Shown here piece after piece: positions 531 to 44,341 of a stretch of 64,000 bases of DNA (the first letter of the stretch is position 1; each line of letters starts with the position of its first letter). This stretch comes from a bacterium (lineage in GTDB: Bacteria; JAMCPX01): NCBI GenBank assembly GCA_021787665.1, contig JAJYLN010000006.1, forward strand, positions 1-64,000, in the 5' to 3' direction. The notes below the pieces were generated by a model, which saw only the letters and a program-made list of their open reading frames with translations, did not search any database and had not been told where the DNA came from. A program made the position numbers and the translations under genes.

Positions 531-559
531 TTGCCGTACCCTACATACGTCATTATTAT
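531..559 (+). promoter_or_regulatory. promoter placing transcription start at the ATG of the CoA-binding protein gene
   Basis: -35 TTGCCG (531-536), 17-base spacer, -10 TATTAT (554-559), then 8 bases to the ATG at 568. No Shine-Dalgarno sequence lies between, so the transcript would be leaderless. It diverges from the rRNA promoters. Confidence 0.6.
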
Positions 560-567
560 AACGTCGT

Positions 568-966
568 ATGGATGAGATAAAAAAGATTTTGAAAGAGAGT
601 AAGACCGTAGCGGTCGTGGGGCTATCCCCAAAGGAAGACAGGCCGAGCTACCGGGTAGCGAGCTACCTGAAGTCCGTTGGATACAGGATCATACCGGTAA
701 ACCCGAATGTGAGTGAAGTGCTCGGCGAGAGGTCTTATGCAGACCTGGGATCTGTGCGTGAAAGGATCGACGTCGTAGACATCTTCAGAAAATCTGAAGA
801 TGTGCCGTCCATCGTCGACGAGGCGATAAAGCTCCGCGCACACGTCTGGATGCAGGAAGGCATAGTCAACGATCAGGCAGCTATGAAGGCGCGCGCGGCA
901 GGACTCCTTGTAGTCATGGACCGCTGTATGCTTAAAGAGCACAAAAAGCTCTCCGCAGTCCCGTAG
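568..966 (+). CDS. CoA-binding domain protein (YccU family)
   Basis: A 132-residue protein consisting of one Rossmann-type CoA-binding domain (CoA_binding_2). The N-terminal VAVVGLSPKEDRPSY segment and the following IIPVNPN strand are hallmarks of the YccU-like family, and the length is typical. Such proteins resemble the CoA-binding part of succinyl-CoA synthetase but have no ligase domain; their cellular role is not firmly known. It is monocistronic, divergent from the rRNA genes. The ATG at 568 is chosen because the family's N-terminus begins there and the promoter -10 lies only 8 bases upstream. Confidence 0.85.
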   Translation: MDEIKKILKESKTVAVVGLSPKEDRPSYRVASYLKSVGYRIIPVNPNVSEVLGERSYADLGSVRERIDVVDIFRKSEDVPSIVDEAIKLRAHVWMQEGIVNDQAAMKARAAGLLVVMDRCMLKEHKKLSAVP

Positions 967-1080
967 CCGGAAAGTACGCAGTCGTTACTCGTACCATGAA
1001 AGGCTGCCAAACCCTTGGTCAGGCAGCGGAAAATAGTAAGTCTCCAAAGATGAAGATTGCATGGAGACGGGTCCTGCCTC

Positions 1081-2052
1081 TCACGGCCATTGTGGCCCTT
1101 TGTATGGAAAGTATTGGGGACCTTTAGCAGCGCCGGACAGCTCGGTAACACTATTGCTACCCGCATTAGCTATCCATACATCCCCTGACCCGTCTATAGC
1201 TATGCCGCCGGGGTAACTCCCTGTATCATAGGTCGCCATCGTTGTACCGGTAGGACTTAATTCCATTACCCGGTTGCTGCCGCTGTTCACGACCCAGATG
1301 TTGTTCGCACTGTCAATGGCAATACTACCCGGGGTAAAGTCAACGCCGTACGTCCCTATGGTCGCACAGGCAGAACTCAATTCAGTTACCTCGTTGCCAT
1401 AAGCATCTGTTACCCATATATGCCCGGAGCCGTCTATAGCAACTGCATAGGGCCCGTTGCCCGCACTGCAGGTCGTGACGGTCGTGCCGGTGGGTGTTAA
1501 CTCTGTCACGGAATTGTTGCCATTATCAGCTATCCAGATATTCTCCTGGGCGTCTATGGCTATACCGTAAGGTGTTTTGCCAACCGGATAGCTCACGGGA
1601 TTCAAGCCGGTATAGCTCAACCTGGTCACCGTATCGTCGCCACTGTTTACGACCCAGATAGTACCATGGGCATCAATGGCCGTACCATAAGGGGATTTAC
1701 CTACCGTATACGTCCCTTGCACCATCCCTGTCGAATTCAGTTTCATGACATTATCGCTACCGTAATCGGAGACCCAGACATTACCGGAACTGTCTATGGC
1801 TAATGCATACGGGTTATTCCCAACGGTGTATGTCCCCTGAGTTACCCCGGTTGAATCCAGCTCCATAACATCGTTGCTGCCATAATCCGAGACCCAGATA
1901 TTACCTGAGCTGTCTATGGCTATACCATACGGGTTGCTGCCCACGCTGTAGGTATTCGTACTCGTATTGCTCTCGCAACCCGGTAGCATTGCCATACCTA
2001 TCATCGCAAACATGCCCAACATCATGATTGGATAGACGATTTTTCCCCGCAT
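1081..2052 (-). CDS. seven-repeat beta-propeller lipoprotein (NHL/streptogramin-lyase-like)
   Basis: A 323-residue secreted protein with a lipoprotein signal: MRGK start, hydrophobic stretch and lipobox LPGC near residue 26. The rest is seven consecutive repeats of about 40 residues, each of the form PYGIAIDSSGNIWVSDYGS followed by VxELxxTG. Seven such units would close one seven-bladed propeller. The repeats resemble NHL and Vgb (virginiamycin B lyase) repeats, but no lyase catalytic residues could be identified, so binding or scaffolding is as likely as enzymatic activity. The DNA repeats with a period of 120 bases. A strong Shine-Dalgarno sequence (AAGGAG) precedes the ATG. Location should be the outer or inner membrane facing the periplasm, or the cell surface. 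Confidence 0.8.
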   Translation of the reverse strand: MRGKIVYPIMMLGMFAMIGMAMLPGCESNTSTNTYSVGSNPYGIAIDSSGNIWVSDYGSNDVMELDSTGVTQGTYTVGNNPYALAIDSSGNVWVSDYGSDNVMKLNSTGMVQGTYTVGKSPYGTAIDAHGTIWVVNSGDDTVTRLSYTGLNPVSYPVGKTPYGIAIDAQENIWIADNGNNSVTELTPTGTTVTTCSAGNGPYAVAIDGSGHIWVTDAYGNEVTELSSACATIGTYGVDFTPGSIAIDSANNIWVVNSGSNRVMELSPTGTTMATYDTGSYPGGIAIDGSGDVWIANAGSNSVTELSGAAKGPQYFPYKGPQWP

Positions 2053-2181
2053 CGTAATCTCCTTCCCGTGTTTTCATCACGCATAACACGCAGCAGCATG
2101 ACGGTCATCTACCCCTGTATCGTATTGATGATACCGTTCAGATAAACAGTAAGCTCTTTGAGATACCTGCCGCCCATCCCT

Positions 2182-2502
2182 CTACTTTTCCTTCAGGATA
2201 CCGAGCAGATCTTTTGTCTCGACCATCAGATATTTTGTTCCTTCATGATCTATCTCCGTGGCGCCGTATTTTGCATAGATGACCTTGTCGCCCACCGTAT
2301 AACCCTTATCGTGAGACGGCTTTTTTTTCGGCACTTTCTTGCCGTCCTCTATGCAGCACGTCGACTCTGGCCCGATGGCCTCGATAACCCCCACCTGGGG
2401 TCTTTCTTTGGCCGTTTCAGGAATAATGATAGAGCCCTTTTTCTGCTCTTTATCTTCCATGGGTCTTATTAAAACCCTGTCTATCATAGGCTGTATTTTC
2501 AT
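2182..2502 (-). CDS. groES: co-chaperonin GroES (10 kDa chaperonin)
   Basis: A 106-residue protein matching the GroES fold throughout: IQPMIDRVLIRPMEDKEQ at the N-terminus, a mobile-loop region ending in SIIIPETAKERPQ, then GDKVIYAKYGATEI and a C-terminal strand YLMVETKDLLGI. It caps the GroEL folding chamber. The loop between residues 45 and 70 is somewhat longer and more basic than usual and carries an unusual CC pair. AAGGAG lies 7 bases before the ATG. No groEL follows: downstream on the same strand comes the propeller lipoprotein. Either groEL lies elsewhere or this is a second, orphan GroES. Confidence 0.93.
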   Translation of the reverse strand: MKIQPMIDRVLIRPMEDKEQKKGSIIIPETAKERPQVGVIEAIGPESTCCIEDGKKVPKKKPSHDKGYTVGDKVIYAKYGATEIDHEGTKYLMVETKDLLGILKEK

Positions 2503-2514
2503 TGGGGTCTCCTT

Positions 2515-2580
2515 TTAATGTTTCCTTTTTACCTCGGATCTTACGGGCTTTCGTTTGTTGTGGTTGAGCATGGTATTCAT
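2515..2580 (-). CDS. possible 21-residue leader peptide upstream of groES
   Basis: A short reading frame (MNTMLNHNKRKPVRSEVKRK, then H and stop) sits between the groES promoter and the groES Shine-Dalgarno site. It has an AGGAG three bases before its ATG, is rich in Lys and Arg, and its TAA ends 12 bases before the groES ATG. It could be a regulatory leader or coupling ORF, or chance. No homologue is known to me. Confidence 0.35.
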   Translation of the reverse strand: MNTMLNHNKRKPVRSEVKRKH

Positions 2581-2594
2581 GTTCTCCTGCACAA

Positions 2595-2623
2595 GACATA
2601 CTATATGATTATTTTGTGGTCAA
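2595..2623 (-). promoter_or_regulatory. putative groES promoter
   Basis: -35 TTGACC (2623-2618), 17-base spacer, -10 TATGTC (2600-2595). The predicted start near 2588 gives an 8-base leader before the 21-codon ORF. No CIRCE inverted repeat (HrcA operator) is visible between here and groES. Confidence 0.45.
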
Positions 2624-2655
2624 TGGTATTGGTTCTGACCTATCTCCTTTGCTTG

Positions 2656-2680
2656 CCGCGGAGCGCCACCGCGGAGCGCC
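2656..2680 (+). repeat. short direct repeat in a 250-base gene-free stretch
   Basis: The 12-base unit CCGCGGAGCGCC occurs twice, separated by one A. A degenerate relative (CCGCGGAGCGG) recurs near 2858 just before the next start codon. The surrounding stretch 2624-2870 is open on both strands but shows no protein I recognise and no ribosome-binding site. Confidence 0.5.
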
Positions 2681-2870
2681 CCCATTGACAAACGCACCAC
2701 AACGAAGTAGAAGAACGTACGAAAGATTGTTATGGCATGACCTTATTTTTGAGAATTTCAAGCGAGGATTCCAAGACATTCTCATGGACAAACAACTTCC
2801 TCAATCAGCACTAATCCGTTTAGGGGATGGCGGAAAGAGAGAGAGCCGAGCTAAGGTCCGCGGAGCGGCC

Positions 2871-3923
2871 ATGCGGGCGTTCATCATCCTTGGTGCCCTT
2901 GTGCTCATTGGATGCGCGAAAAAGGCGGCCTCACCGAATATCGGGTGTACCGATCCATCTAATACATCGAGCGGTATCACGTGTGAGTACCTCGCCCAGC
3001 AAGACGCCACATGGCGTCCTGCAACCGATTCCCCTGTCGGTTTCTCGGTAGTCCTCACCGACGCGGGCTACGACAACATCCAGACGGGCGGGTTCGCGGC
3101 CGCCCAGGCACAGCTCGCGATGCTACTCAAGACGGGCGCGTCATGCGTCAGAATCGACATCGGTTACGACGCGTGGCTCAGCAACCAGCAGAACATACAG
3201 GCTGACATCACCAGTTTAATCGATCAGATACGCCGTGCAGGAAAGTGTCTCATCATAGCCGACGCGGCTGCCGAGCGCTATCGCACGTACCCGCTTCCGT
3301 GGACACAGTTCCAACAGGCGTGGATCCAGCGCGTCAAGACGCTGTATGCGTTGTATAAACCCGATTTCTATATTCTCGTGAAGGAGCCGGGCTGGTACGT
3401 TCCTATGGTCTCGGACTCCCTGACGAACCCGGATTTTCAGAATCTATCGACGTGGGTAACGCTGGTGCAAAACCTCGAAGCCGCGGCGCCGAACAGCAAG
3501 GACGGGGTAGCGATCGAGGGGGGGTATTCCCGCAACGCGTCAGCCCCTGTTCGTGAGCTTCTTGCGGTCCGTCGCGGCGCTTCCGGGTACCGACTTCATC
3601 GGCTTCGATCAGTACGGGTCCAACGACCAGATGCTCGACATCTCGCTCATCGGTCAAGTTCAGACCACGAAGAACGTCTGGATCGCCGAAGCGTGGAGCA
3701 CCGATCACCCGAGTATCGTGTTCGACCCATCGCGTGCGTCGCTCGATGCGACCTGGATGCGGGTGGAATATGATTACGCGCAGTATGTCCATGCCGACAA
3801 TGTGATTCCATTCTACGACGGGGCTTTGCCTCGTACTCGCAGCCTCCCGACTACACGAAGCGTACACCCGTTTTCTATACGTTCCAGCAGCTCGCGACAA
3901 CGTACGGGACCGCCGTGCGGTGA
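2871..3923 (+). pseudogene. lipoprotein with glycoside-hydrolase-like TIM-barrel sequence, interrupted by two frameshifts
   Basis: Starts MRAFIILGALVLIGC, a lipoprotein signal with lipobox. Three frames must be joined to read through. Frame 1 runs to about 3520-3550, where a run of seven G (3518-3524) is a likely slip point. Frame 2 continues through LPGTDFIGFDQYGSND and WIAEAWS. A second shift near 3820 leads to the C-terminus YTFQQLATTYGTAVR and a stop at 3921-3923. The pattern ILVKEPGWY followed later by WIAEAW resembles the acid/base and nucleophile Glu positions of clan GH-A barrels, but this is inference from short motifs. It may be a genuine pseudogene or a sequencing/assembly error; GC content is high here and the intact frames show no other decay. 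Confidence 0.6.
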
Positions 3924-4001
3924 TTCATGCCCTGCTCATCTTCATGCCAAACCGATGAGCCGAGTCTTCTTTAATTTCATTATTCACCATTATATTTTTT
4001 C

Positions 4002-4478
4002 TTATGAATCTTGCTTACGCAATGCTCCCTTAATTACAAAAAAAGAACCCCGAATCGTTCCGGCAAGTTTAGACTTCTGCCTTGCAAACTTAAACTTGCC
4101 CAACTCCTTCGGTACCTCCATCCCCTCGGAAAGCTTGAAACCAACAGCTCTCTTCTTTGGGTCATCAACCGTATACATGACATTGACCTCAAGACCATCC
4201 TCAAAAAAGACGAAGGCCCACTTTATATTTTTTACTTGAAAGCGGGAGGTTTCTAACGATTTTGCAGCAAACTCAATACCTCGCTCTTCTTTTAAAATTC
4301 GGTTCACGTAGTCGAGTGTTTCACGGCTTTCGCTTGCTGGTACAACCGTAAATTCATGCTGGTATTTGTTCATGAAGTAGCGGGCTTCATTGGCACGTAA
4401 GCCAGCAAGAGCTTCTGCTACCGGTGAAGACTCCAAACCGACCGTAGACACCTGTATAAAATCAACGACAAAGGACAT
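4002..4478 (-). CDS. hypothetical protein, 158 residues
   Basis: I do not recognise the family. The protein is soluble, with no signal peptide or membrane segment. It begins MSFVVDFIQVSTVGLESSPV, has a Glu-rich helical middle (RETLDYVNRILKEERGIEFAAKSL) and a basic C-terminal half. A GAGGTG Shine-Dalgarno element lies about 9 bases before the ATG, supporting real translation. It is monocistronic; upstream on the same strand is tRNA-Met. The gene is AT-richer than the interrupted lipoprotein next to it, so it may have been acquired separately. Confidence 0.7.
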   Translation of the reverse strand: MSFVVDFIQVSTVGLESSPVAEALAGLRANEARYFMNKYQHEFTVVPASESRETLDYVNRILKEERGIEFAAKSLETSRFQVKNIKWAFVFFEDGLEVNVMYTVDDPKKRAVGFKLSEGMEVPKELGKFKFARQKSKLAGTIRGSFFVIKGALRKQDS

Positions 4479-4632
4479 ATCTTTTTCACCTCACTTCCTT
4501 TACTTGAGAATACCTGGTTCCTGGCATAAATGAACTTCTTTTTTTTAAGGTAGTCAAATTTCAGTTTTGAGTAAGGATCATCAGAAGATCCTCTCTATCT
4601 CCTGCCCGTCTGCCTCAGAGCCATAAAAAGAA

Positions 4633-4705
4633 TGGCGGTGCAGGGAATCGAACCCCGGACATAGGGCTTATGAGACCCCCGCTCTACCAACTGAGCTACA
4701 CCGCC
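4633..4705 (-). tRNA. tRNA-Met (CAT anticodon, elongator type)
   Basis: A complete cloverleaf on the minus strand: acceptor stem GGCGGTG/CACCGCC, D arm GCTCAGTTGGTAGAGC, anticodon loop CTCATAA, and T arm with GGTTCGATTCC. The discriminator base is A at 4633 and CCA is not encoded. The fully paired first acceptor base pair (G-C) argues against initiator tRNA. A CAT anticodon could in principle be a lysidine-modified tRNA-Ile, but the overall sequence is closest to elongator Met. Confidence 0.95.
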
Positions 4706-4811
4706 GTTACGGATCATGATCTTATGTATTGATCACGTGAGCACGTGTCAAGGAAAGAAGCAACATTGACAATCGTATACACAAATTATACTCCATAGGG
4801 GAGGAGTTTTT

Positions 4812-9599: not shown

Positions 9600-9628
9600 T
9601 TGACTTGCCGTGAATGCGCATCTACCAT
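9600..9628 (+). promoter_or_regulatory. kdsB promoter giving a leaderless start
   Basis: -35 TTGACT (9600-9605), 17-base spacer, -10 TACCAT (9623-9628), then 7 bases to the ATG at 9636. A GAGGT lies only 3 bases before that ATG, too close for normal Shine-Dalgarno pairing. Confidence 0.6.
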
Positions 9629-9635
9629 GAGGTCC

Positions 9636-10385
9636 ATGGATGATGTGACTGTTATTATACCTGCGCGGTACAACTCAAAGCGGCTGCCAGGAAAGCCCCT
9701 CTTAAAGCTCGGAGACAGGACGATCATCCAACACGTCTATGAGAACGCCGCAGCATCAAGGCTCGTCAGCAGAGTCGTCGTCGCGACCGATGACAGACGC
9801 ATCTACGACACAGTCAGAGACTTCGGCGGTGATTGTATCATGACGCCGAAAGGCATAAGCAGCGGAACCGACAGGGTGGCCTATGCCGCAAAAGATATAC
9901 GCACAAAGCTGATAATGAACCTTCAGGGAGACGAGCCCTTCCTCACCCCCGCTATCTTCGATACAGGTCTGCGTACTGCCCTGGCAGACCGACGTGGGAG
10001 CGATGTGGTAACACTCGCCTCGAAGATAAGGACGGCCAGGGAGCTCGAGAACCCAAACCATGTTAAAGTCGTCATGGACAGGCAGGGACACGCCCTCTAC
10101 TTTTCGCGCTTCCCCATACCGTTTGTAAGGGACAATAAGGGAAAACTTGTCAAAACAGTAAAAAACCACTACAGACATATCGGTATATACATTTTCCGAC
10201 GTAAGGTACTGCTCGGATTCATAAAGCTGGCGCCGTCACTGCTCGAGAGGATGGAGCGCCTCGAACAGTTGCGAATGTTGGAAAACGGCTACAGGATAAC
10301 GGTCGTCGTTACCGGAAACCCGCCCGCCGGGATCGACACCCCGAATGATATGGAAAGGGCGAGGGGAATCGTAGCGGGTAGATAA
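9636..10385 (+). CDS. kdsB: 3-deoxy-manno-octulosonate cytidylyltransferase (CMP-KDO synthetase)
   Basis: 249 residues. Activates KDO with CTP for inner-core lipopolysaccharide. The nucleotidyltransferase signature [17 protein letters not shown] is at the N-terminus, followed by [41 protein letters not shown] and [12 protein letters not shown], all diagnostic for KdsB. The start at 9636 puts the conserved strand at residue 5 as usual and coincides with the predicted transcription start; an ATG at 9627 is inside the promoter. It is followed 10 bases later by pyrG, a pairing common in Gram-negative bacteria. kdsA, often next in this order, is absent here. Confidence 0.95.
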
Positions 10386-12021: not shown

Positions 12022-12049
12022 TTCACTTTTGATAACTATGCGTTATGTT
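12022..12049 (+). promoter_or_regulatory. promoter of the DUF2156 gene
   Basis: -35 TTCACT (12022-12027), 16-base spacer, -10 TATGTT (12044-12049), then 7 bases to the ATG at 12057. No Shine-Dalgarno sequence. Confidence 0.45.
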
Positions 12050-12056
12050 ATACAGT

Positions 12057-12980
12057 ATGGATCCTAGTATCTTACTCAAAAACGGGATAGCTGTCTTTCC
12101 CGATTTCATCGATATTGATCTGGGGATGAAACCGTACTTCGATGGGCTCTTGACACTCCAGGCTCCCCTGGCATCCGAGTACACCTTTACCAATATCTTT
12201 ATATGGAGACACCTGTACAGATTCAGGGCATGTTCCCTGGATGGGGCACTCTGCATCAAGGGCGTCGATCGCAGCGGCGTTGAGTTCCTCATGATCGTGG
12301 CGAAGGACACCGGCGCGTATGTCGATACGGTCCAACGGATCTCAGATAGGTACAGAAGGGAAAGCGGCACGGTGAGGCTTTTCAGGGTCGAAGAACGGTT
12401 CGTAGAGCCATTGAAACGCACCTTCCCCGCCATGACCACTGAGGATGATAGGGACAACTCTGACTATGTCTACCTGTCATCAGACCTCATAGACCTTAAA
12501 GGGAGAAAGTACGACGGCAAGCGTAACCACATCAAGCGTTTCAGGGAACGATACACCTACGACTATGCGCCTATCACGGACGCCTTGAGAGACGAGTGCG
12601 TGGAGCTCACGGAGGTATGGCATAAAACAAAGGGCAGCGATGGGATCGAAGCGGACATCACGGCGACCAGAGAGGCCATTACAAACTTTGGCCCCTTGGG
12701 ACTGACCGGCGGCGTGATACGCATAGACGGGAAGGTGCGTGCGTTTTCGATAGCCGAGCGTTTGAACGCAGAAACAGCAGTGATACATATAGAAAAATAC
12801 GACCCTTCATACGAGGGCCTTGCGCAGGTGATGAACCAGCAGTTGTGTTCACAAGCATGCAGCGCATTCAAGTATATCAACCGTGAACAGGACATGGGCA
12901 TCCAGGGCCTGCGAAGATCCAAGCTGTCGTACAATCCCGCATTTCTGCTCAACAAGTACAAAATAATAATCGGCCCATAA
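12057..12980 (+). CDS. DUF2156 (phosphatidylglycerol lysyltransferase-like) protein
   Basis: About 307 residues, soluble. The C-terminal motif YINREQDMGIQGLRRSKLSY followed by NPAFLLNKY is the hallmark of DUF2156, a double-GNAT-fold family related to the catalytic domain of MprF and to peptidoglycan aminoacyl transferases. The middle holds KGRKYDGKRNHIKRF, also typical. Unlike MprF there are no membrane helices. The acceptor and donor are unknown. The start at 12057 (MDPSILLKNG) fits the promoter position; an ATG at 12045 lies within it. Monocistronic. Confidence 0.85.
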   Translation: MDPSILLKNGIAVFPDFIDIDLGMKPYFDGLLTLQAPLASEYTFTNIFIWRHLYRFRACSLDGALCIKGVDRSGVEFLMIVAKDTGAYVDTVQRISDRYRRESGTVRLFRVEERFVEPLKRTFPAMTTEDDRDNSDYVYLSSDLIDLKGRKYDGKRNHIKRFRERYTYDYAPITDALRDECVELTEVWHKTKGSDGIEADITATREAITNFGPLGLTGGVIRIDGKVRAFSIAERLNAETAVIHIEKYDPSYEGLAQVMNQQLCSQACSAFKYINREQDMGIQGLRRSKLSYNPAFLLNKYKIIIGP

Positions 12981-15042: not shown

Positions 15043-15078
15043 TTATTTGTTGACAAATAAATCAAAATACCTTAAACA
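15043..15078 (+). promoter_or_regulatory. palindromic operator overlapping the tetR-family promoter
   Basis: A perfect inverted repeat TTATTTGT-TG-ACAAATAA spans 15043-15060. It overlaps the -35 TTGACA (15050-15055); a 17-base spacer leads to -10 TAAACA (15073-15078), and the ATG follows 9 bases later. The placement suggests autorepression by the TetR-type protein it precedes. Confidence 0.65.
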
Positions 15079-15087
15079 GACTCCATC

Positions 15088-15714
15088 ATGAGCAGGAATC
15101 ATAGAAAAAAAGAGAAAGTGGACAGGATGAAAGAGCAGATCATCATGGCCGCGATAAAGGTCTATGCCGCAAAGGGCATGCAGGGCATACGCATAGCGGA
15201 CATCGCAAAGGAGGCGAAGGTCTCATACGGACTCGTGTATCACTACTTCAAAAACAAGGAGGATGTCCTAAATGCTATATTTTCCAAGAGCATCAACATC
15301 TTCCTGAAAGCGATAGAGAATACGTCCGTGCAGGAGAAGAGCCTGAGGGAGAAACTGACCTCGATAACAACGTTCTTGTTCAACGCGTGCCGCGAGCTGC
15401 CCGAGTTCATGTACGTCATTATGTTCGAGGTCATCTGGACGCCCAAGTTCCTCGAGACAAGGAACTTTATTACCTTTACCAAGGCGTTCACCACGTTCGA
15501 GAAGATCCTGATCGAGTTCAAGCAAAAGGGAGAACTCAGGAGCGATATCAATACGACGATAAGCACGTACATGTTTTTCGGGGGACTCGAAATGATCCTT
15601 ACCGGCATCGTCCTCAAGGCGATACCCGTGGAAAAGCAGGAGGTGTTCCAGAAGCTTTCGAGCACTTTCATCAGTCAGTACATTTACGGGTTGACCGTAA
15701 TGCAAGAGGCATAA
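15088..15714 (+). CDS. TetR/AcrR family transcriptional regulator
   Basis: 208 residues. The N-terminal helix-turn-helix is clear at about residues 30-62 (IRIADIAKEAKVSYGLVYHY then FKNKEDVLNAIF). The C-terminal ligand domain resembles TetR_C of fatty-acid regulators (FadR/PsrA/YsiA-like) only in general. It is followed 22 bases later by two acyl-CoA dehydrogenase genes on the same strand, so an acyl-CoA ligand and control of that operon are plausible. The start at 15088 follows the promoter without a Shine-Dalgarno site. Confidence 0.88.
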   Translation: MSRNHRKKEKVDRMKEQIIMAAIKVYAAKGMQGIRIADIAKEAKVSYGLVYHYFKNKEDVLNAIFSKSINIFLKAIENTSVQEKSLREKLTSITTFLFNACRELPEFMYVIMFEVIWTPKFLETRNFITFTKAFTTFEKILIEFKQKGELRSDINTTISTYMFFGGLEMILTGIVLKAIPVEKQEVFQKLSSTFISQYIYGLTVMQEA

Positions 15715-18065: not shown

Positions 18066-18950
18066 TTATACCGTAAATACGAGAGCGGGCTGCAACGTCT
18101 GCGGAGCAACGATCGCCTTTTTCTCCATGAAGGAGGCGATCTTATTTACAAACATATGGTTGAGCGAATGACCACTCTTGTAGCTTGTTATATGACCTTT
18201 CAACGAGCCGCCGAGCGTATACAGGTCTCCCAGCATATCGAGGATCTTATGTCGAACAAACTCATCCCTGAACCGCAAGCCGTCGGTATTCATAACGTCC
18301 TTCTCGTCGAGTACCACGGTATTTTCCATGGATGAGCCTCGTGCAAGCCCGAGGGCCTGCATCGTGGTATAGTCCTTCAGAAAACCGAACGTCCTCGCCT
18401 TTGCAAGTTCGGAATAAAAATGTTCCGGAGAGTTGTGGTACGTATACTGCTGTCTGCGTATCCTGGGGTGATTAAAGTCTATGACGCCGTCTATGATAAG
18501 GGTACTCGCCGGCGTGTATTCTATGTACCCCGTATTGTGCTCGACTCTTACGGTATTATCTAGAAGGATATTTTCTTTTTGGGCGGTGAGCGTGAATATA
18601 CCCGCGTCGAGTATTGCGTCCGCAAACAGAGACGCACTGCCATCCCCGCCAGGGACCTCGTCTCCTTCGACCTCGATTATCGCGCTGTCCACACCAAAGC
18701 CATGCAAGGTACTGAGGAGGTGTTCTACCGTAAAGACTACGAAGTCGTCGTTCCCAATCGTCGTAGCGAACATCGTGCTTTTGACCTTGCTGGAACTCAG
18801 CGGAAGGTACCTCAGGACGTTCCCGACTTTCTTGACGAATAATATACCATCCTTCTCCGAGGCTGGATGTATTATTATTCTCGAAAATTCGCCGGTATGC
18901 AGCCCATACCCCGCACACACAATCCTTTTTTTCAATGTCCTCTTAAACAT
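18066..18950 (-). CDS. lpxC: UDP-3-O-acyl-N-acetylglucosamine deacetylase
   Basis: 294 residues, normal length. Zn-dependent committed step of lipid A synthesis in the cytoplasm. Characteristic text: RTLKKRIVCAGYGLHTGE at the N-terminus, the zinc-site HLLSTLHGFGVDSAIIEVEG followed by DEVPGGDGSA, RARTFGFLKDY-like segment, RFRDEFVRHKILDMLGDLYTLG with the second metal site, and a final GHSLNH. The ATG at 18950 gives the conserved start MFKRTL; a TTG 18 bases upstream is less likely. A TATTTT -10-like element ends 6 bases before the ATG, hinting at another leaderless start. Confidence 0.96.
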   Translation of the reverse strand: MFKRTLKKRIVCAGYGLHTGEFSRIIIHPASEKDGILFVKKVGNVLRYLPLSSSKVKSTMFATTIGNDDFVVFTVEHLLSTLHGFGVDSAIIEVEGDEVPGGDGSASLFADAILDAGIFTLTAQKENILLDNTVRVEHNTGYIEYTPASTLIIDGVIDFNHPRIRRQQYTYHNSPEHFYSELAKARTFGFLKDYTTMQALGLARGSSMENTVVLDEKDVMNTDGLRFRDEFVRHKILDMLGDLYTLGGSLKGHITSYKSGHSLNHMFVNKIASFMEKKAIVAPQTLQPALVFTV

Positions 18951-19115
18951 CGGACAAAAATAAAGCAATCATCATGCCAATTAAAGTGTTACTATATATC
19001 AATCAGTTAACTCGATAGGCCGATTCAGATTGTGATGCTAAAATCACACCTTTTACCGATATATTTGATACGGGGGGGGCAGTTCGTAAACCGCTCCTGC
19101 TTTTCGATCGTGGTA

Positions 19116-22102: not shown

Positions 22103-22378
22103 CTATTCTTTTATTACCTCGAGCACTATCTTCGATGCCACCCCCTTCCCTATTGCTGCCTTCGTCCCTTCTGCCGCTACAATTAAGGGACCGGCCGACG
22201 TATTTAAGACCCTGACCGTACTCCCCGTGCGGATACCGATATTGAGAAGCTTCTTGAGGACCCCCATACCGCCTGAGATATGTCTGACAACTCCTTTCTC
22301 TCCCGCTTTAAGGTCAGAGAGCGGCAGCAGAACACCGGACTGCGCCTTATCGTCTTCCCTGCTGTATGTCGCTTCCAT
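22103..22378 (-). CDS. FeoA-domain protein
   Basis: 91 residues ending in a complete FeoA (SH3-like) domain: LSDLKAGEKGVVRHISGG, LKKLLNIGIRTGSTVRVLN and GPLIVAAEGTKAAIGKGVASKI. FeoA proteins assist the FeoB ferrous-iron transporter. No feoB is adjacent, so it is a stand-alone FeoA. The ATG at 22378 (MEATYSRED) coincides with the predicted transcription start and sits behind a Fur box, which supports both iron regulation and this start; an upstream in-frame start would lie inside the promoter. Confidence 0.85.
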   Translation of the reverse strand: MEATYSREDDKAQSGVLLPLSDLKAGEKGVVRHISGGMGVLKKLLNIGIRTGSTVRVLNTSAGPLIVAAEGTKAAIGKGVASKIVLEVIKE

Positions 22379-22385
22379 GCTTTTA

Positions 22386-22414
22386 TTGATAATGATTTTC
22401 AACAGCGTTGTCAA
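22386..22414 (-). promoter_or_regulatory. promoter with Fur box for the FeoA gene
   Basis: Perfect -35 TTGACA (22414-22409), 17-base spacer, -10 TATCAA (22391-22386), then 7 bases to the ATG at 22378, without a Shine-Dalgarno site. The sequence TGATAATGATTTTCA at 22387-22401 matches the Fur core inverted repeat TGATAATnATTATCA at 14 of 15 positions and covers the -10. Repression by Fe-Fur is the natural reading. Confidence 0.75.
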
Positions 22415-23111: not shown

Positions 23112-23140
23112 TTGACTTAAAAAGCTTTTGAAGCTACCAG
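23112..23140 (+). promoter_or_regulatory. promoter of the exchanger-pyrophosphatase operon
   Basis: -35 TTGACT (23112-23117), 17-base spacer, -10 TACCAG (23135-23140), then 6 bases to the ATG at 23147. No Shine-Dalgarno site. Confidence 0.55.
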
Positions 23141-23146
23141 ATTTCT

Positions 23147-24322
23147 ATGCATTGGCTTTTCGGCCTTATCCCGAATCTTATAAACACTATATACCCTAGC
23201 AGTTCAGGTGCGATACATGCACTGTGGACGTTCCCTGCAATCGTGCTGCTCGCCCTCGTGATCTCCTTGGGGGCAGACTCTGCACAATATTATATATCCC
23301 AGGGACTCGCGCTTGCCATACTTGCATGGATGCAAACGGCGCCGGAATTCATGGTCGAAGCAGACCTTGCATGGCACAAAGAGGTACACCTGCTGCTCGC
23401 CAACCTCACGGGATCGTTACGGCTCCTTACCGGCCTCGGGCTTCCCCTCGTATTCTTCGTATCCTACCTCTACCATGGTAGGGGCGGAAAGAATACAACC
23501 ATCCATATAGACTCGGCACATTCCATAGAGGTGGTCTCCTTTACGGCAGGGGTTTTGTATCTTGTTGTCGTTTATGTGAAGGGCAGCTTGACCATGCTCG
23601 ACGGCATACTATTGCTGTTGCTCTACCTTATCTATCTGTTCTTCCTAACCAGGTTGCCTTCACGGGAGAAAGGGGAGCCGGCGAAGATGGAATATGTTCC
23701 GGGCAAGATTATGCATATGAGCAGATGGTACAGATCAGCATCGATCCTCGCCTTATTCGTCATAGGAGGGGTCGGGCTCATTCTCGTGGTCGGTCCCTTT
23801 ATAAACAGCATGAAAGGCGTTGCCGTGGCCGTGGGCGTCTCGGATTTTGTTTTTATCCAATGGTTATCACCGTTCCTTTCGGAGTTCCCGGAGAAGTTGA
23901 GCGCGTTCATGTGGACAAAAAAGGAAGAGGGCACGACGATGGGTCTTATGAATATTGTGTCTTCGACCGTGAACCAGCTCACTCTATTGCCGGCGCTCCT
24001 CCCCTTCATCTATGCTTACGCTGTCGGAAGCGTGACTCCGATCCAGTTCGGTGCCCATCAAAGATCGGAGATACTCCTCACGATTGCCCAATGCAGCACC
24101 ACCATAGTACTTTTGGTTGACATGAAATTCAGTTCGTATGAAGCAGGCGGTTTGTTTATTATATGGTGTATACAATTCTTTGTACCCGCAGCGAGGACTA
24201 TCGTAACGATGATCTTTTTTCTATGGACGTTGACGGAAATAGGTTTGATAGTGTTAAAGGTTAAGGGAGTGGATTCGGTAGAGAATTTTATCGGCACCTA
24301 TAAAAGGTATATTAAAACTTAA
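23147..24322 (+). CDS. sodium/calcium exchanger family membrane protein (CaCA superfamily-like)
   Basis: 391 residues with about ten hydrophobic segments. Two inverted alpha-repeat-like motifs are visible: QTAPEFMVEAD followed by LLLANLTGSLRLL in the first half, and LSPFLSEFPEKLSAF followed by GLMNIVSSTVNQLTLLP in the second. Acidic residues in both repeats fit cation coordination in CaCA exchangers, though the canonical GTS-PE/N-GSN text is modified, so the ion is uncertain. It is immediately followed, after 14 bases, by the membrane pyrophosphatase gene, which would energise the membrane the exchanger uses. Confidence 0.75.
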   Translation: MHWLFGLIPNLINTIYPSSSGAIHALWTFPAIVLLALVISLGADSAQYYISQGLALAILAWMQTAPEFMVEADLAWHKEVHLLLANLTGSLRLLTGLGLPLVFFVSYLYHGRGGKNTTIHIDSAHSIEVVSFTAGVLYLVVVYVKGSLTMLDGILLLLLYLIYLFFLTRLPSREKGEPAKMEYVPGKIMHMSRWYRSASILALFVIGGVGLILVVGPFINSMKGVAVAVGVSDFVFIQWLSPFLSEFPEKLSAFMWTKKEEGTTMGLMNIVSSTVNQLTLLPALLPFIYAYAVGSVTPIQFGAHQRSEILLTIAQCSTTIVLLVDMKFSSYEAGGLFIIWCIQFFVPAARTIVTMIFFLWTLTEIGLIVLKVKGVDSVENFIGTYKRYIKT

Positions 24323-26518: not shown

Positions 26519-26548
26519 AAGTCCCGCTGAAAACAGCGGGACTTTTTT
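26519..26548 (+). terminator. intrinsic terminator after hppA
   Basis: Stem AAGTCCCGCTG/CAGCGGGACTT (11 bp, 26519-26529 with 26534-26544), AAAA loop, followed by a T run to 26548. The fmt promoter starts a few bases further on. Confidence 0.95.
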
Positions 26549-26550: not shown

Positions 26551-26579
26551 TTGCATTTATTTTATTTACACCCTACATA
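26551..26579 (+). promoter_or_regulatory. putative fmt promoter
   Basis: -35 TTGCAT (26551-26556), 17-base spacer, -10 TACATA (26574-26579), then 7 bases to the ATG at 26587. The hexamers are weak but the spacing matches the other leaderless promoters, and a promoter is required because a terminator lies directly upstream. Confidence 0.4.
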
Positions 26580-26586
26580 CTATTTC

Positions 26587-27519
26587 ATGAAGATTGTATT
26601 CATGGGTAGTGCCCGGTTCAGTGTACCGGCGCTTGAGGCCATTCTACGATCGGCCCACCTCCTCACGGGCGTGATAACAAACCCGGAAGAGCCCGCAGGC
26701 CGGGGGCTCAACGTCAGGCAAACACCCGTTGCGGAGATAGCCAAAACACAGGGAATCGATCTGCTGACGCCTGGTACCCTGAAAAATAACAGGGATGTGA
26801 TTGATTGGATAAAGGCGTACAAGCCGGACGCAATTGCGGTTGTCGCCTACGGCAAGTTTATACCCTCCGCTATCCTGAACATACCGGTGCACGGCTGTTT
26901 GAACCTGCACCCTTCTCTGCTGCCAAAATACCGGGGGGCAGCACCCATTCAGAGGGCCATCATGAACAACGAGAAAGAAACAGGCGTAACAGTCATGCGT
27001 TTGGACGAAGGTATGGACAGCGGACCCGTTTTTATCCAGGAAAAGGTTGGAATCGATACGACTGATAATGCGGCGACGCTCGGGGAAAAGCTATCGAAGC
27101 TCGGCGCCGATTTGCTTATAAGAACGCTCGATCTCATCGAACAAAAACACATCTCGCCCCTCGCCCAAAAGCACGGACTTGCTACCCTTGCTCCCAAAAT
27201 AAGCAAGGAAGAGGGCAGACTCGATTTTCTCAAGCCCGCGCTGTTACTCAATAACATCGTCAGGGCACTAATCGAGTGGCCAACAGCGTGGACCACCTGG
27301 AAAAACAACCCTGTTCAGGTGCTGAGCACGGGATACACTGCCGGGGCGAACACCGATCCTCCGGGGACAATCGTTGCGATAGACAGGGTCGGTGTCCACG
27401 TCGCGACCGGCGACGGCACGCTTATTATAACAGCGGTAAGGCCTGCCGGCGGCAGATCTATGGACGCATTGAGCTATGCAAACGGAAGAAGGATCATGAT
27501 CGGGGATACACTTGGATAA
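26587..27519 (+). CDS. fmt: methionyl-tRNA formyltransferase
   Basis: 310 residues. Formylates initiator Met-tRNA using 10-formyl-THF. MKIVFMGSARFSVPALEAIL at the N-terminus, VVAYGKFIPSAILNIP, then the catalytic region GCLNLHPSLLPKYRGAAPIQ with Asn-His, followed by GVTVMRLDEGMDSGPV with the catalytic Asp. The C-terminal tRNA-binding domain contains RALIEWPTAWT and GRRIMIGDTLG. The start at 26587 gives the conserved N-terminus; the upstream frame extension lies in the promoter. The usual partner def (peptide deformylase) is not adjacent. Confidence 0.96.
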   Translation: MKIVFMGSARFSVPALEAILRSAHLLTGVITNPEEPAGRGLNVRQTPVAEIAKTQGIDLLTPGTLKNNRDVIDWIKAYKPDAIAVVAYGKFIPSAILNIPVHGCLNLHPSLLPKYRGAAPIQRAIMNNEKETGVTVMRLDEGMDSGPVFIQEKVGIDTTDNAATLGEKLSKLGADLLIRTLDLIEQKHISPLAQKHGLATLAPKISKEEGRLDFLKPALLLNNIVRALIEWPTAWTTWKNNPVQVLSTGYTAGANTDPPGTIVAIDRVGVHVATGDGTLIITAVRPAGGRSMDALSYANGRRIMIGDTLG

Positions 27520-32084: not shown

Positions 32085-32112
32085 TTGACACCGGGAAGGC
32101 GTATGGTAAAGA
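32085..32112 (+). promoter_or_regulatory. promoter of the NUDIX-AMMECR1 unit
   Basis: Perfect -35 TTGACA (32085-32090), 16-base spacer, -10 TAAAGA (32107-32112), then 6 bases to the ATG at 32119. No Shine-Dalgarno site, so the message should be leaderless. Confidence 0.6.
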
Positions 32113-32118
32113 CGCACT

Positions 32119-32556
32119 ATGACTGCTTACAGGAACCCTATTCCGACGGTGGACATCATCGTTGAGATCGGCGATACGATCGTCCTCATAGAGAGGAAAA
32201 ATCCTCCTCACGGATGGGCCATACCGGGGGGATTTGTCGACTACGGTGAATCGCTCGAAGACGCCGCTGTCCGTGAGGCACGCGAGGAGACATCGCTCGA
32301 CGTGGAGCTCTGCGAGCAGTTGCACACCTACTCGAGACCGCAGCGCGATCCGCGCCACCACACCATAACAACCGTCTATATTGCCCGTATACAGCGAGGC
32401 AGGCCGGCAGCAGGGGATGACGCAAAGTCGCTTGACCTGTTTACGTTCAATTCGTTACCCGATAGAATCGCATTCGATCACAGGGATATCCTGATGGACT
32501 ATTTCGCCTACAGGAAAACGGGCAGGAGACCGCCACCGGTACCATGTCGAAGCTGA
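32119..32556 (+). CDS. NUDIX hydrolase
   Basis: 145 residues. The Nudix box is complete: [20 protein letters not shown] followed by ETSLDVEL, matching GX5EX7REUXEEXGU. Preceded by [19 protein letters not shown], it resembles ADP-ribose pyrophosphatase and house-cleaning (MutT-like) members; the substrate is unclear. The 3' end overlaps the AMMECR1 gene by 13 bases, so the two are co-translated. Confidence 0.92.
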
Positions 32557-39094: not shown

Positions 39095-39104
39095 CCCGAT
39101 CTTC

Positions 39105-40043: not shown

Positions 40044-40096
40044 CGCCCCCTCCCCGTCGCTGTCGGACAACAACCTGTCCTTGCAAAAAGTCCCAT

Positions 40097-40666
40097 CTAT
40101 CCTCCTTCTTCTGATTTGAATGTAAACCGAATCTCGGTACAGGGATCACCATAGCACGGGCACTTTTCGATCCCGGACTTTACGTTCTGGAACTTGCACA
40201 TAACGAGAAATTGTTCAAGCCATCCCTGCGCATTCTTGACATGCGCTATGTCTATGTCCGGGAACTCCTTTATCGTTACCACTATCCCATGGTCCGGAAG
40301 CATGCTTGCCTCAACCTTGCCGACATCGTAGCAGCTGTACCCTATGCTCATCGCCTTGTTGATGATCATGTTCGGACTGATGAAATTCAAAAAAATCCTG
40401 TATACGGTCGAGAGGTCGTGCTGGGCAGAGAGCTTTCCCTGCTCGATGCAGTATGAGAGGTCCCCTCTGCCCACGACCCTGTCCATCATCTTGAGCAGGT
40501 CGGTGTAGAGCGTGTAGGGGTACCACTCAGTAAGCAGGATGTGCTCGCCCACATACTTCCTCGTCTCTGGCGGCAGGGAAGCGATAATCTTCGGGAGATC
40601 GTCTTTCATGTTCTTTTTGATAAACTTTATCAGGCCAAGGATCGCTATGCCCTTTACCTGTGCCAT
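40097..40666 (-). CDS. hypothetical protein, DUF2378/TIGR02265-like
   Basis: About 189 residues. The first 140 residues are helical, with LPPETRKYVGEHILLTEWYP and IFLNFISPNMIINKA. This broadly resembles the TIGR02265 (DUF2378) proteins of myxobacteria, whose role is unknown. The last third has four Cys in CKFQNVKSGIEKCPCYGDPC and a final beta strand, which may form a metal site. AAAGGAGAG lies before the ATG at 40666; an ATG at 40687 would place that site inside the coding region, so 40666 is chosen. It precedes the DHS-like gene by 53 bases. Confidence 0.5.
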   Translation of the reverse strand: MAQVKGIAILGLIKFIKKNMKDDLPKIIASLPPETRKYVGEHILLTEWYPYTLYTDLLKMMDRVVGRGDLSYCIEQGKLSAQHDLSTVYRIFLNFISPNMIINKAMSIGYSCYDVGKVEASMLPDHGIVVTIKEFPDIDIAHVKNAQGWLEQFLVMCKFQNVKSGIEKCPCYGDPCTEIRFTFKSEEGG

Positions 40667-40739
40667 GCCTTTCTCTCCTTTCTTCATTGTTACTGTATAA
40701 GTTTCTCATAAGTCAACAATTGCAACGACACATTCTTTA

Positions 40740-40768
40740 TTGACAGCACCGATTCCCGTGAATATAGT
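40740..40768 (+). promoter_or_regulatory. near-consensus leaderless promoter of the DUF268 gene
   Basis: Perfect -35 TTGACA (40740-40745), 17-base spacer, -10 TATAGT (40763-40768), then only 6 bases (TTTACC) to the ATG at 40775. The best-formed promoter of the window; transcription should begin at the start codon itself. Confidence 0.75.
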
Positions 40769-40774
40769 TTTACC

Positions 40775-41620
40775 ATGAAGAGGGAGGATCGGCATCCTTT
40801 GCGTTTTGAAGGAACGGAGCGCTATGGTAAAAAGATCTTAAAAAGCATACTCAATGTACTGATTTCCTGCGGCATTAATCCGATACTATTGCTTCAAAGT
40901 TTTAGAGGAATCCCTATTTTCCTGAGAGATCTGATCAGTTTTGAAAAAAAAGTATGCCGTGTTGCCAAACCAAGTTTTACCATTACTACGTTATACCCGA
41001 TATTTAACGATCGATTCGTAGAAAGCGGTATCGCATCAGGCCATTACTTTCATCAGGATCTGCTCATTGCCAGAAGAATTTTCTTCAATACCCCAACCAA
41101 ACATGTGGATATAGGCTCGAGGATAGATGGTTTTGTAGCCCATGTTGCAGCTTTCAGAGAGATAGAAGTTTTTGATATCAGGCCCTTACCCAGAAGAATT
41201 GAAAATGTTACATTTACAAGAATAGATATCATGAGGGACGATCTGGATATGCTTGATTACACAGATTCACTTTCTTCTTTACATGCCGTTGAGCATTTTG
41301 GATTAGGAAGATACGGAGATCCAATCGATCCGGACGGTCACATAAAAGGACTGAACAATATGTATAAATTTCTTAAAGCAGGAGGTAAATTCTATCTATC
41401 CTTACCTATAGGAAAACAACGAATCGAATTCAACGCACACCGCATTTTCTCCCTTGAATATATCCTATTCCTGATCGGCGGTAAATACAGAATTGATAGA
41501 TTTTCCTATGTTGATGATAACGGTGACTTGTTTGACCATGTACCGCTCGCTGAGAAGGACATTAAGCAGAATTATGGCTGTCATTATGGATGCGGTATCT
41601 TTGAATTGACCAAAGAATAA
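40775..41620 (+). CDS. DUF268 family protein (methyltransferase-like)
   Basis: 281 residues, soluble after a short hydrophobic stretch near residue 30-55. HVDIGSRIDGFVAHVAAFRE holds a SAM-binding-like glycine motif, followed by SSLHAVEHFGLGRYGDPIDP and LKAGGKFYLSLPIGKQRIEF NAHR-type text, the pattern of DUF268, a family linked to surface polysaccharide clusters. The gene is clearly AT-richer than its neighbours and its upstream promoter is near perfect, which suggests recent acquisition. It precedes the YwiC-like gene by 6 bases. Confidence 0.8.
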   Translation: MKREDRHPLRFEGTERYGKKILKSILNVLISCGINPILLLQSFRGIPIFLRDLISFEKKVCRVAKPSFTITTLYPIFNDRFVESGIASGHYFHQDLLIARRIFFNTPTKHVDIGSRIDGFVAHVAAFREIEVFDIRPLPRRIENVTFTRIDIMRDDLDMLDYTDSLSSLHAVEHFGLGRYGDPIDPDGHIKGLNNMYKFLKAGGKFYLSLPIGKQRIEFNAHRIFSLEYILFLIGGKYRIDRFSYVDDNGDLFDHVPLAEKDIKQNYGCHYGCGIFELTKE

Positions 41621-41626
41621 AGTTCC

Positions 41627-42391
41627 ATGGAACTTAGAGATATCCCATTTCCGAGGGAGTACGGCTCGTGGGCGATAGTGCTGACATCGTGCGCCATCGG
41701 TGTGTCCCTGCACGTCGCCGGCATCAGGTGGTGGACGCCTGCCGCGCTCGTCGGCATTGCCCTCCTTTTCATGACCAAGGCATCCATCAGCACGTTTATC
41801 AGGAGGCGGAATACTGCCCTCCTGCTGTTCACGGCGCTGTATGCGGCTGCCGGCACCGCGCTGCTCATACCTGCGCTCCTCCGCATCGGCGTCCGGTACA
41901 CTCTTGCACTGTCGGTCATCCCCCTGTGCACGATCGCCGTGTACAGCATGTCGGTATACGTCCACAGGGAGCGGGCATCGGTAACGGAGTTTTTCGCCAT
42001 GGGAACGTTGACGATGCCGGTGGTATTTTTCTCCCTGGCGGAACAGGGTGGCCCGGCTGTCCGCGTCCTCGTCATCTGGGTCTTTACGTTCCTCTATTTC
42101 TCGTCGAGTATTTTCAGGGTAAAGATGCTGCTATTCGGGAAGCAGGTGTACCGGTCTGCGAACATCGTGTATCTTTCGGTGCTGACCGCATTCGTCTCTG
42201 CCATGATCCATCTCGGGATAACCAGCCCACTTTCCGCTGCCGCATTCCTGCCGTTGCTCGAGAATCTTGTCGACACGTTCAGGAGTCCGCAGCGGCCAAA
42301 CCTCAGAGCAACCGGCATCAAGGAGCTCATCAAGGGCACGGCGTTCGCCTTCATCATCGTCCTGTCCGCCCTGTCTTCCGGGCGAGGGTGA
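41627..42391 (+). CDS. YwiC-like membrane protein
   Basis: 254 residues with about seven transmembrane helices. The N-terminal IPFPREYGSWAIVLTSCAIG, with Pro-Arg-Glu-Tyr-Gly-Ser-Trp in place of the P-EHGAW motif, is the YwiC signature. Function is unknown; some homologues lie near nitrate respiration genes. The C-terminus ends LSALSSGRG. Its 3' end overlaps the convergent RNase R gene by 38 bases. It sits directly after the AT-rich DUF268 gene but has ordinary composition. Confidence 0.82.
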   Translation: MELRDIPFPREYGSWAIVLTSCAIGVSLHVAGIRWWTPAALVGIALLFMTKASISTFIRRRNTALLLFTALYAAAGTALLIPALLRIGVRYTLALSVIPLCTIAVYSMSVYVHRERASVTEFFAMGTLTMPVVFFSLAEQGGPAVRVLVIWVFTFLYFSSSIFRVKMLLFGKQVYRSANIVYLSVLTAFVSAMIHLGITSPLSAAAFLPLLENLVDTFRSPQRPNLRATGIKELIKGTAFAFIIVLSALSSGRG

Positions 42392-44306
42392 GCTTTATGT
42401 CGCCGGTGAAGCGCTCGATGCTCGCGATTTCCACGCTGACCTTCTGTCCGATCTTGAACGTACGGTGGGTCCTTCTCCCCGTGGCGATGTGCCGGGCCGT
42501 GTCCGTGTAGTAATAATCGCCCGGCATGTTCTCGAAGGCAAGGAAGCCGTCGATAAAGAAATCCTCTATTTCGACGAACAGCCCGGAGCCCGTTATACCG
42601 CTTATATACCCGGCTATGGGGCTGTCCTGTCTGTCTGCAAGGAGCCTGGCGATGAGCAGTTTATTGAGGTCTCTCTCCGCATCCATGGCCCTCCGCTCGG
42701 TTTCCGAAGAGTGATCCGCGATGTCACGAAGCCTGGCAGCCCACAGTTCGGCGCGTCCCTTCGACATAGAGCCGGCAAGCAGGTCTTTCAGTATCCTGTG
42801 CACGGTGAGGTCCGGGTACCGCCTGATCGGTGAGGTGAAATGCGTGTATAGGTCGAAGGCGAGCCCGTAATGGCCGATATTCTCGATCGAATACTTCGCC
42901 TGCTTCATGGATCTGAGCAGTGTGTAATTGACGACTTTCTCGAGGCCACTGTCCTTGACCCGGTCGAGTATGCGCTGGATGGATGCCGAATCCATGCTGT
43001 CGAAATGCGGGGGCTTCAGCCCGAGGTTATGCATGAACAGGTAGAACTCGTAAAGCTTGTCCTTGTCCGGCGGCTCATGGACCCTGTAGATGAACGGGTG
43101 CGCATTGGACGTGCAATGCGCCGCAACGCACCTGTTGGCCTCGAGCATAAACTCCTCCACCATCAGGTGCGCGACGTTCCTCTCGATCCGTGTAACGGAC
43201 TGCAGGTCACCGTACTCATCCATGTTCAGCTCGATATCCGGTAAATCGAAGTCCAGACTGCCGCTCTGCATCCTGCGCTCCCGGAGGATCAAGGCGAGAT
43301 CCCGCATGGTCTGCAGGTTTGAAAGCAAGTCCGGCGATGCGTGCTCCGTAGCGGACTGCTGCCCCTGCTTGAGCATATCGCTGACGATGGTATAGGTGAG
43401 GCGTGCGGAGCTCTTGATGATGCTCGGGTAGATACTGTAGCCGATCCTCCCGCCAGCCCTGTCGAACCGCATCTCGGCCGTCATGGTCAGCCTGTCCTCG
43501 TCCGGCCTCAGGCTGCACAGGTCGTTCGACAGCACCTCCGGAAGCATCGGTATGGCCTTGTCCGGAAAATACACGCTCGTGCCCCGCGTGTACGCGTCCG
43601 CATCGACCGGGTCGTCCATACTCACGTAATGGCCGACGTCAGCGATCGAGACATACAGGGTGTAGCCGTGCCCTGCTCTCCTCACGAACACGGCATCGTC
43701 GAAGTCTCTGGCCGTCTCTCCGTCGATCGTCACGATAGGCATGTCGGTGAGATCGCGCCTCTTCGAACGCTCCACCTGGGGTATCGCATGATGTATCGAC
43801 GAGGCATGCTCTGTCGTCTTCCGGCTGAAGACCGCGGGTAGTTCGTACTTGGCTATGACAATCTTCTGGTCGATGTCCGGCGTACCGCCATCGCCGATCC
43901 TCTGGTGCAGCCTCGCCCTGCTCTTGTTTCCGGCATCGGTCGTTATCTCGCACTTGACCACGTCGCCGGGCTTCAGTCCCTTCGTACCCTTCTCGAACGA
44001 CAGGTCGAAGTTCATATGTTTGTCGAGCGGTGAGCAGACGAGCTGACCGCTCTGCCTGGTGACCGTTCCGGTGATATACCGCATGGTCCTTTGCACTATC
44101 TTGAGTACCTTTCCCTCATACAGCTTCCCGTCACGCGCGCTCGCATCGACCATGACGACATCGCCGTGTATGGCGCCGTTCATGTACTTGGGGGGCACGA
44201 ATATGTCTTTCGGCAGGTCCGTGCTGACAAAGCCGTAGCCGTCCGGGTGGACGAACATCGTGCCCTGCTTCTTAAAGCTCTTGGTTCTTTTTGTTATCAT
44301 CTTCAT
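42354..44306 (-). CDS. rnr: ribonuclease R
   Basis: 650 residues. 3'-5' exoribonuclease of the RNB family. N-terminal cold-shock domains (FVHPDGYGFVSTDLPKDIFV), the catalytic RNB domain with DGETARDFDDAVFV and VSIADVGHYV, EFMLEANRCVAAH, SIENIGHYGLAFDLYTHFTS PIRRYPDL-type end, and a C-terminal S1 domain (YISGITGSGLFVEIEDFFID). Its predicted promoter (-10 TAGCAT, -35 TTGCAC) ends six bases before the ATG, so it is probably leaderless. It is somewhat shorter than E. coli RNase R at the C-terminus, where the basic tail is reduced to RKTGRTGR. Confidence 0.96.
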   Translation of the reverse strand: MKMITKRTKSFKKQGTMFVHPDGYGFVSTDLPKDIFVPPKYMNGAIHGDVVMVDASARDGKLYEGKVLKIVQRTMRYITGTVTRQSGQLVCSPLDKHMNFDLSFEKGTKGLKPGDVVKCEITTDAGNKSRARLHQRIGDGGTPDIDQKIVIAKYELPAVFSRKTTEHASSIHHAIPQVERSKRRDLTDMPIVTIDGETARDFDDAVFVRRAGHGYTLYVSIADVGHYVSMDDPVDADAYTRGTSVYFPDKAIPMLPEVLSNDLCSLRPDEDRLTMTAEMRFDRAGGRIGYSIYPSIIKSSARLTYTIVSDMLKQGQQSATEHASPDLLSNLQTMRDLALILRERRMQSGSLDFDLPDIELNMDEYGDLQSVTRIERNVAHLMVEEFMLEANRCVAAHCTSNAHPFIYRVHEPPDKDKLYEFYLFMHNLGLKPPHFDSMDSASIQRILDRVKDSGLEKVVNYTLLRSMKQAKYSIENIGHYGLAFDLYTHFTSPIRRYPDLTVHRILKDLLAGSMSKGRAELWAARLRDIADHSSETERRAMDAERDLNKLLIARLLADRQDSPIAGYISGITGSGLFVEIEDFFIDGFLAFENMPGDYYYTDTARHIATGRRTHRTFKIGQKVSVEIASIERFTGDIKLTLARKTGRTGR

Positions 44307-44307
44307 C

Positions 44308-44341
44308 GTTCAATGCTATAGTATGTTGAACAAATGTGCAA
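44308..44341 (+). promoter_or_regulatory. divergent rnr-maf promoter region with shared palindrome
   Basis: For rnr (minus): -35 TTGCAC (44341-44336), 17-base spacer, -10 TAGCAT (44318-44313), 6 bases to ATG. For maf (plus): -10 TATAGT at 44317-44322, with a start near 44330 and about 12 bases of leader. The arms GTTCAA (44308-44313) and TTGAAC (44326-44331) form an inverted repeat around both -10 elements, so one regulator could control both genes. The maf start region overlaps the rnr -35. Confidence 0.5.

Follow-up and report, generated by a model that had tools for sequence, protein, structure and literature searches.

A 64,000-nucleotide stretch of bacterial DNA (lineage JAMCPX01; assembly GCA_021787665.1, contig JAJYLN010000006.1, positions 1 to 64,000 of the forward strand; the window) carries ten genes for which a preliminary description had proposed leaderless transcripts, with the start codon 6–9 bases after a −10 element and a −35 element placed at a spacer of 16–17 bases. 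All ten open reading frames match protein families, and the matched domain mostly begins near the proposed start (Table 1). When each arrangement was scored against dinucleotide shuffles, using a promoter model learned from the genome sample described below, nine of the ten starts were individually significant (p ≤ 0.007), with the start at 12057 remaining doubtful. A −35 element of TTGACA or TTGACT is present in six of the ten, where "five or so" had been reported. At fmt, the gap between the intrinsic terminator of the upstream gene and the ATG is filled by the promoter, and the leader is therefore limited to a few bases at most.

Table 1. Promoter-to-start arrangements and associated features in the window (d, bases between the −10 element and the start codon; p, model score against dinucleotide shuffles)
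Feature (gene coordinates)	Span	Strand	−35	−10	Spacer	d	ATG	Score	p	Family or remark
CoA-binding protein gene (568–966)	531–570	+	TTGCCG 531–536	TATTAT 554–559	17	8	568	11.9	0.001	PF13380
kdsB (9636–10385)	9600–9638	+	TTGACT 9600–9605	TACCAT 9623–9628	17	7	9636	13.9	<0.0005	PF02348
LPG_synthase_C-family gene (12057–12980)	12022–12059	+	TTCACT 12022–12027	TATGTT 12044–12049	16	7	12057	6.0	0.033	Doubtful promoter; better-scoring pair at d0
TetR-family gene (15088–15714)	15050–15090	+	TTGACA 15050–15055	TAAACA 15073–15078	17	9	15088	15.1	<0.0005	PF00440
feoA (22378–22103)	22376–22414	−	TTGACA 22414–22409	TATCAA 22391–22386	17	7	22378	15.1	<0.0005	PF04023
Na/Ca-exchanger gene (23147–24322)	23112–23149	+	TTGACT 23112–23117	TACCAG 23135–23140	17	6	23147	12.2	0.001	PF01699
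Intrinsic terminator of gene upstream of fmt	26519–26544	+								11-pair stem and T tail; ends 42 bases before fmt ATG
fmt (26587–27519)	26551–26589	+	TTGCAT 26551–26556	TACATA 26574–26579	17	7	26587	11.7	0.001	PF00551, PF02911
NUDIX gene (32119–32556)	32085–32121	+	TTGACA 32085–32090	TAAAGA 32107–32112	16	6	32119	12.6	0.0005	PF00293
DUF268 gene (40775–41620)	40740–40777	+	TTGACA 40740–40745	TATAGT 40763–40768	17	6	40775	16.8	<0.0005	PF03269; top score of the ten
RNase R-type gene rnr (44306–42354)	44304–44341	−	TTGCAC 44341–44336	TAGCAT 44318–44313	17	6	44306	8.8	0.007	PF00773
Gene 18950–18066	18948–18985	−	TTTAAT 18985–18980	TATTTT 18962–18957		6	18950	10.0	0.004	Extra candidate
Gene 54049–53447	54047–54086	−	TTGTTC 54086–54081	TACACT 54063–54058		8	54049	8.4	0.008	Extra candidate

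The source genome is a 2.25-Mb assembly in 35 contigs, of which 1.68 Mb (75%) was analysed. Genes were called on a hexamer coding score alone, with promoter and Shine-Dalgarno information excluded, so the 1377 starts in the sample were not picked by the feature under test. The promoter model was fitted by expectation-maximisation to the 696 genes with their own upstream region (first genes), seeded with the Escherichia coli consensus and with d left free, and three dinucleotide-shuffled sets were each refitted identically. The fitted model comprised a −35 box TTGACA, a −10 box TATAnT and a preferred spacer of 17 bases (59%), and its distance distribution was bimodal, with a peak at d 6–10 (12.9% at d6 and 9.0% at d7, followed by 8–10), a trough at 11–16 and a broad leadered hump at 17–40; distances of 0–2 and 4–5 received about 0.2% each. 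Of the 696 first genes the model assigned an expected 110 to the leaderless class, 105 of them with a posterior above 0.5, compared with 9–19 in the shuffled sets, so that the histogram named beforehand as the check on the proposal gave the anticipated peak. This corresponds to ∼8% of called genes (∼105–110 of 1377, roughly 1 in 12), ∼15% of genes with their own upstream region and ∼30% of genes with a model-detected promoter. With scores held fixed, 103 first genes reached a score of at least 8 at d 5–9, compared with 9.0 in shuffles and 6.8 for arbitrary ATGs. The preliminary description had also held that the arrangement corrects start codons. This is so relative to the longest open reading frame, but the coding-score caller itself picked 9636, 12057, 15088, 23147, 26587 and 44306, and an ordinary gene caller would mostly find these start codons.

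The same geometry was visible in plain motif counts. Strict −35/−10 pairs occurred at d6–7 in 21 of the 696-odd first genes and roughly 0–2 times at each neighbouring distance, and the −35 box was found 16–18 bases from the −10 element. Among the 396 first genes lacking a Shine-Dalgarno core, TAnnnT peaked at 6 and 7 bases (21 and 14 versus ∼5) and TTGACA-like hexamers peaked 28–31 bases upstream of the start (9, 16, 12, and 8 versus ∼3), whereas the 318 genes with a core had no −10 peak at 6–9 bases. A histogram of the single −10 hexamer gave only a weak bump, and paired and model-based tests were used in its place. E. coli MG1655 (350 kb), taken through the same pipeline and promoter matrices, yielded no leaderless gene among 200 first genes.

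Properties outside the promoter model also set the leaderless genes apart. A pyrimidine occupies position −1 in 97 of 105 (92%) compared with 363 of 537 other genes (p = 2.6e-8), as would be expected with the A of the ATG as the first transcribed base. ATG serves as start codon for 104 of 105 compared with 492 of 537 (p = 0.003), with the caller favouring ATG in both sets, and a Shine-Dalgarno core is found in 15% of the leaderless set versus 51%.

The family is represented by eight further genomes, in which conservation was assessed; those with names are metagenome-assembled genomes labelled "Deltaproteobacteria bacterium" or "bacterium", and their isolate names suggest to us an origin in mine sediments. 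Leaderless first genes were recovered in G003 (7 of 120) and G004 (17 of 124), with 0–1 in shuffles. The fmt arrangement is retained in seven of eight relatives, that of rnr in six of eight, and the G004 orthologue of feoA has the same promoter arrangement. Orthologues of the Na/Ca-exchanger gene and of the LPG_synthase_C-family gene were also located. In the one fmt orthologue that departs from ATG (G001, locus L089), GTG replaces it and the leaderless arrangement is retained. Across the nine family genomes, the exact promoter-plus-ATG pattern occurred 230 times at 6–7 bases versus 103 times at 13–14. When exact patterns were counted in 41 genomes, the excess was equal or stronger in unrelated families (61 versus 8 in G036 and 33 versus 14 in G011, at the same distances), and the trait is therefore not peculiar to this lineage; G036 and G011 are candidates for heavy leaderless use. 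Among the leaderless genes checked outside the window are those for a LexA-type repressor, a Fur-family regulator, dephospho-CoA kinase, TilS, TadA and YchF, with further homologues of undecaprenyl-diphosphatase, LpxH and IlvD; the matches to the last three and to Fur are below NCBI whole-protein cut-offs, and several proteins were cut at 250 residues. No common functional theme is apparent among these examples.

Could the −10-like motifs instead be A/T-rich, unstructured aids to ribosome binding, of the protein S1 type, on messages that do have leaders? Genes without Shine-Dalgarno sites often have A/T-rich, weakly folded initiation regions, the ambiguity of an A/T-rich bias near −20 to −10 has been discussed (PMC5397173), and 5′ folding is indeed weaker in the leaderless set here (p = 0.006). 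An aid of this kind would not, however, account for the coupling of the TA motif at d6–9 to a TTGACA box at a spacer of 17 bases (26 cases, against 0–3 at most spacers outside 15–19), nor for a distance peak just 2–4 bases wide that is preceded by an empty zone at 0–5. With the TA motif placed elsewhere, the −35 peak no longer follows it and stays fixed relative to the ATG. Moreover, all seven relatives that possess kdsB keep TTGACT, 17 bases, TA..A(T/A), 6–8 bases and the ATG, while the sequence of the spacer diverges. We consider this explanation very improbable.

An equally improbable alternative is that the promoters are real and the ATGs mis-chosen, the true starts lying downstream behind leaders with Shine-Dalgarno sites. 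The rnr gene gives this some substance, as its start lies two codons downstream in G004 (L263), where an AGGA site precedes it, and perhaps also in G002 (L257); rnr in G004 thus appears to have gone from leaderless to Shine-Dalgarno-led within one family. In-frame starts that have a Shine-Dalgarno core and lie no more than 30 codons downstream are, however, rarer in the leaderless set (10%) than among Shine-Dalgarno genes (16%), and the ATG itself is conserved across the kdsB and fmt orthologues, save for the single GTG. The peak is also confined to ATG: with 800 intergenic promoters taken as the starting point, ATG occurred 48, 41, 28 and 32 times at d 6, 7, 8 and 9, compared with ∼19 per position elsewhere, whereas seven other triplets, including GTG, TTG, CTG and ACG, had no peak at d6–9, and neither did ATG in the same test on E. 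coli. The least probable explanation, to which we give almost no credence, is that A/T-rich intergenic DNA offers −10 look-alikes at any distance by chance. Lone −10-like hexamers do turn up frequently whatever the distance, and when 11 kb of the window was put through a plain promoter scan, 12 sites emerged, with 12.1 in shuffles. Yet every comparison made at d6–9 (shuffles, arbitrary ATGs, other triplets, reversed patterns, shifted distances and E. coli) gave far fewer pairs. Because the plain scan showed no excess, a call at an individual site should not be trusted unless it is backed by the genome-wide model.

Shine-Dalgarno initiation is also in use. Shine-Dalgarno 4-mers peak 5–8 bases before starts, and a core precedes 365 of the 602 in-operon genes, in line with the proposal that both modes operate in one cell. 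A search of the 2.25-Mb source assembly found no 16S rRNA gene, and the anti-Shine-Dalgarno sequence was therefore read in relatives: the 16S 3′ end, GGATCACCTCC, with anti-Shine-Dalgarno CCTCC, is intact in G003 and G005, and both initiation modes thus coexist. A loss of Shine-Dalgarno initiation of the Bacteroidetes type was considered and ruled out, Shine-Dalgarno sites not being scarce genome-wide. The further proposal that lipoprotein genes are Shine-Dalgarno-led as a rule did not hold, as several leaderless genes found genome-wide start, by eye, with lipoprotein-like signal peptides.

Collectively, these data make it very probable that two modes of starting proteins coexist in this genome, with ∼8% of genes predicted to be leaderless from sigma70-type promoters and most others Shine-Dalgarno-led. 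On the observed promoter geometry, its excess over controls, its conservation and heritability, the absence of Shine-Dalgarno sites and the coexistence with Shine-Dalgarno-led genes, a housekeeping sigma70-type promoter would be positioned to make RNA polymerase initiate on the A of the ATG itself, yielding a leaderless mRNA that would be translated without a leader. By analogy with leaderless messages elsewhere, the 5′-terminal AUG may then be read by a ribosome already carrying initiator tRNA, a 70S-type route, while most of the remaining genes initiate through a Shine-Dalgarno site. Several points weigh against this interpretation. The 5′ ends at the ATG are sequence predictions, and leaders of 1–3 bases would be indistinguishable from none. 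The leaderless count depends on a promoter consensus and on gene calls from a home-made program, and roughly one in ten members of the set would be expected to be there by chance. Finally, of the 15 cases testable in the sampled parts, just 6 have an orthologue that stays leaderless, versus 9 of 83 for other genes; the state is therefore heritable, yet with appreciable turnover.

It is tempting to go further and suppose that, in a family apparently isolated within its phylum, leaderlessness is an old trait under selection in certain genes with housekeeping or regulatory roles (kdsB, fmt, rnr, feoA and others), which stayed leaderless as the surrounding DNA diverged. Such a gene set would be under a separate initiation pathway, whose response to stress could be uncoupled from that of Shine-Dalgarno messages, but we regard this extension as unlikely.

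Frequent leaderless initiation in a Gram-negative had been put forward as a novelty; surveys, however, already report it in many Gram-negatives (PMC3160421, PMC4117421). Zheng et al. (2011) described TA-led (leaderless) genes in 207 of 953 bacterial genomes, with averages of 15.8% in delta-Proteobacteria (8 of 33 genomes), 13.3% in Acidobacteria and 26.5% in Aquificae (PMC3160421). The genes described here resemble that set in having a −10 box ∼10 bases before the start and no Shine-Dalgarno site, and in being mixed with Shine-Dalgarno-led genes; they differ in belonging to a lineage known solely from metagenome assemblies, in their clear −35 box and in that orthologue conservation was checked. 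Caulobacter crescentus, with 375 leaderless mRNAs (9.6% of coding sequences; PMC4117421), is likewise Gram-negative, with a share near the ∼8% found here, coexisting modes and an unstructured start region, although its mRNAs were mapped by 5′ rapid amplification of cDNA ends and ribosome profiling, whereas ours are sequence predictions. In Deinococcus-Thermus, the −10 region similarly abuts the open reading frame to give leaderless mRNA, but there reportedly as a predominant mode (PMC12340547), whereas here it is a minority beside Shine-Dalgarno initiation. A later summary (PMC9581028) gives predicted leaderless transcription in 21.6% of bacterial species and summarises GeneMarkS-2 (Lomsadze 2018) as defining a leaderless class. 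The lineage is thus new for leaderless initiation as far as found, the phenomenon itself being already known from many bacteria, and the picture of leaderless initiation as scattered widely across bacteria is unchanged. What is added is a well supported mixed leaderless and Shine-Dalgarno case in an uncultured, apparently Gram-negative lineage, in which specific genes retain orthologous promoter-to-ATG arrangements, an aid to start annotation in the lineage.

Within the window, the two extra candidates on the minus strand, at 18950 and 54049 (Table 1), are likely additional leaderless cases missed by the preliminary description. Upstream of feoA (window 22386–22414, minus strand), a palindrome that resembles a Fur box, TGAAAATCATTATCA, overlaps the −10 element and recurs in the orthologue from G004. 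If it is a Fur box, iron would repress the leaderless feoA. The G+C content of window positions 56000–64000 is 41–44%, versus ∼52–57% over most of the window, and this segment is possibly acquired DNA.

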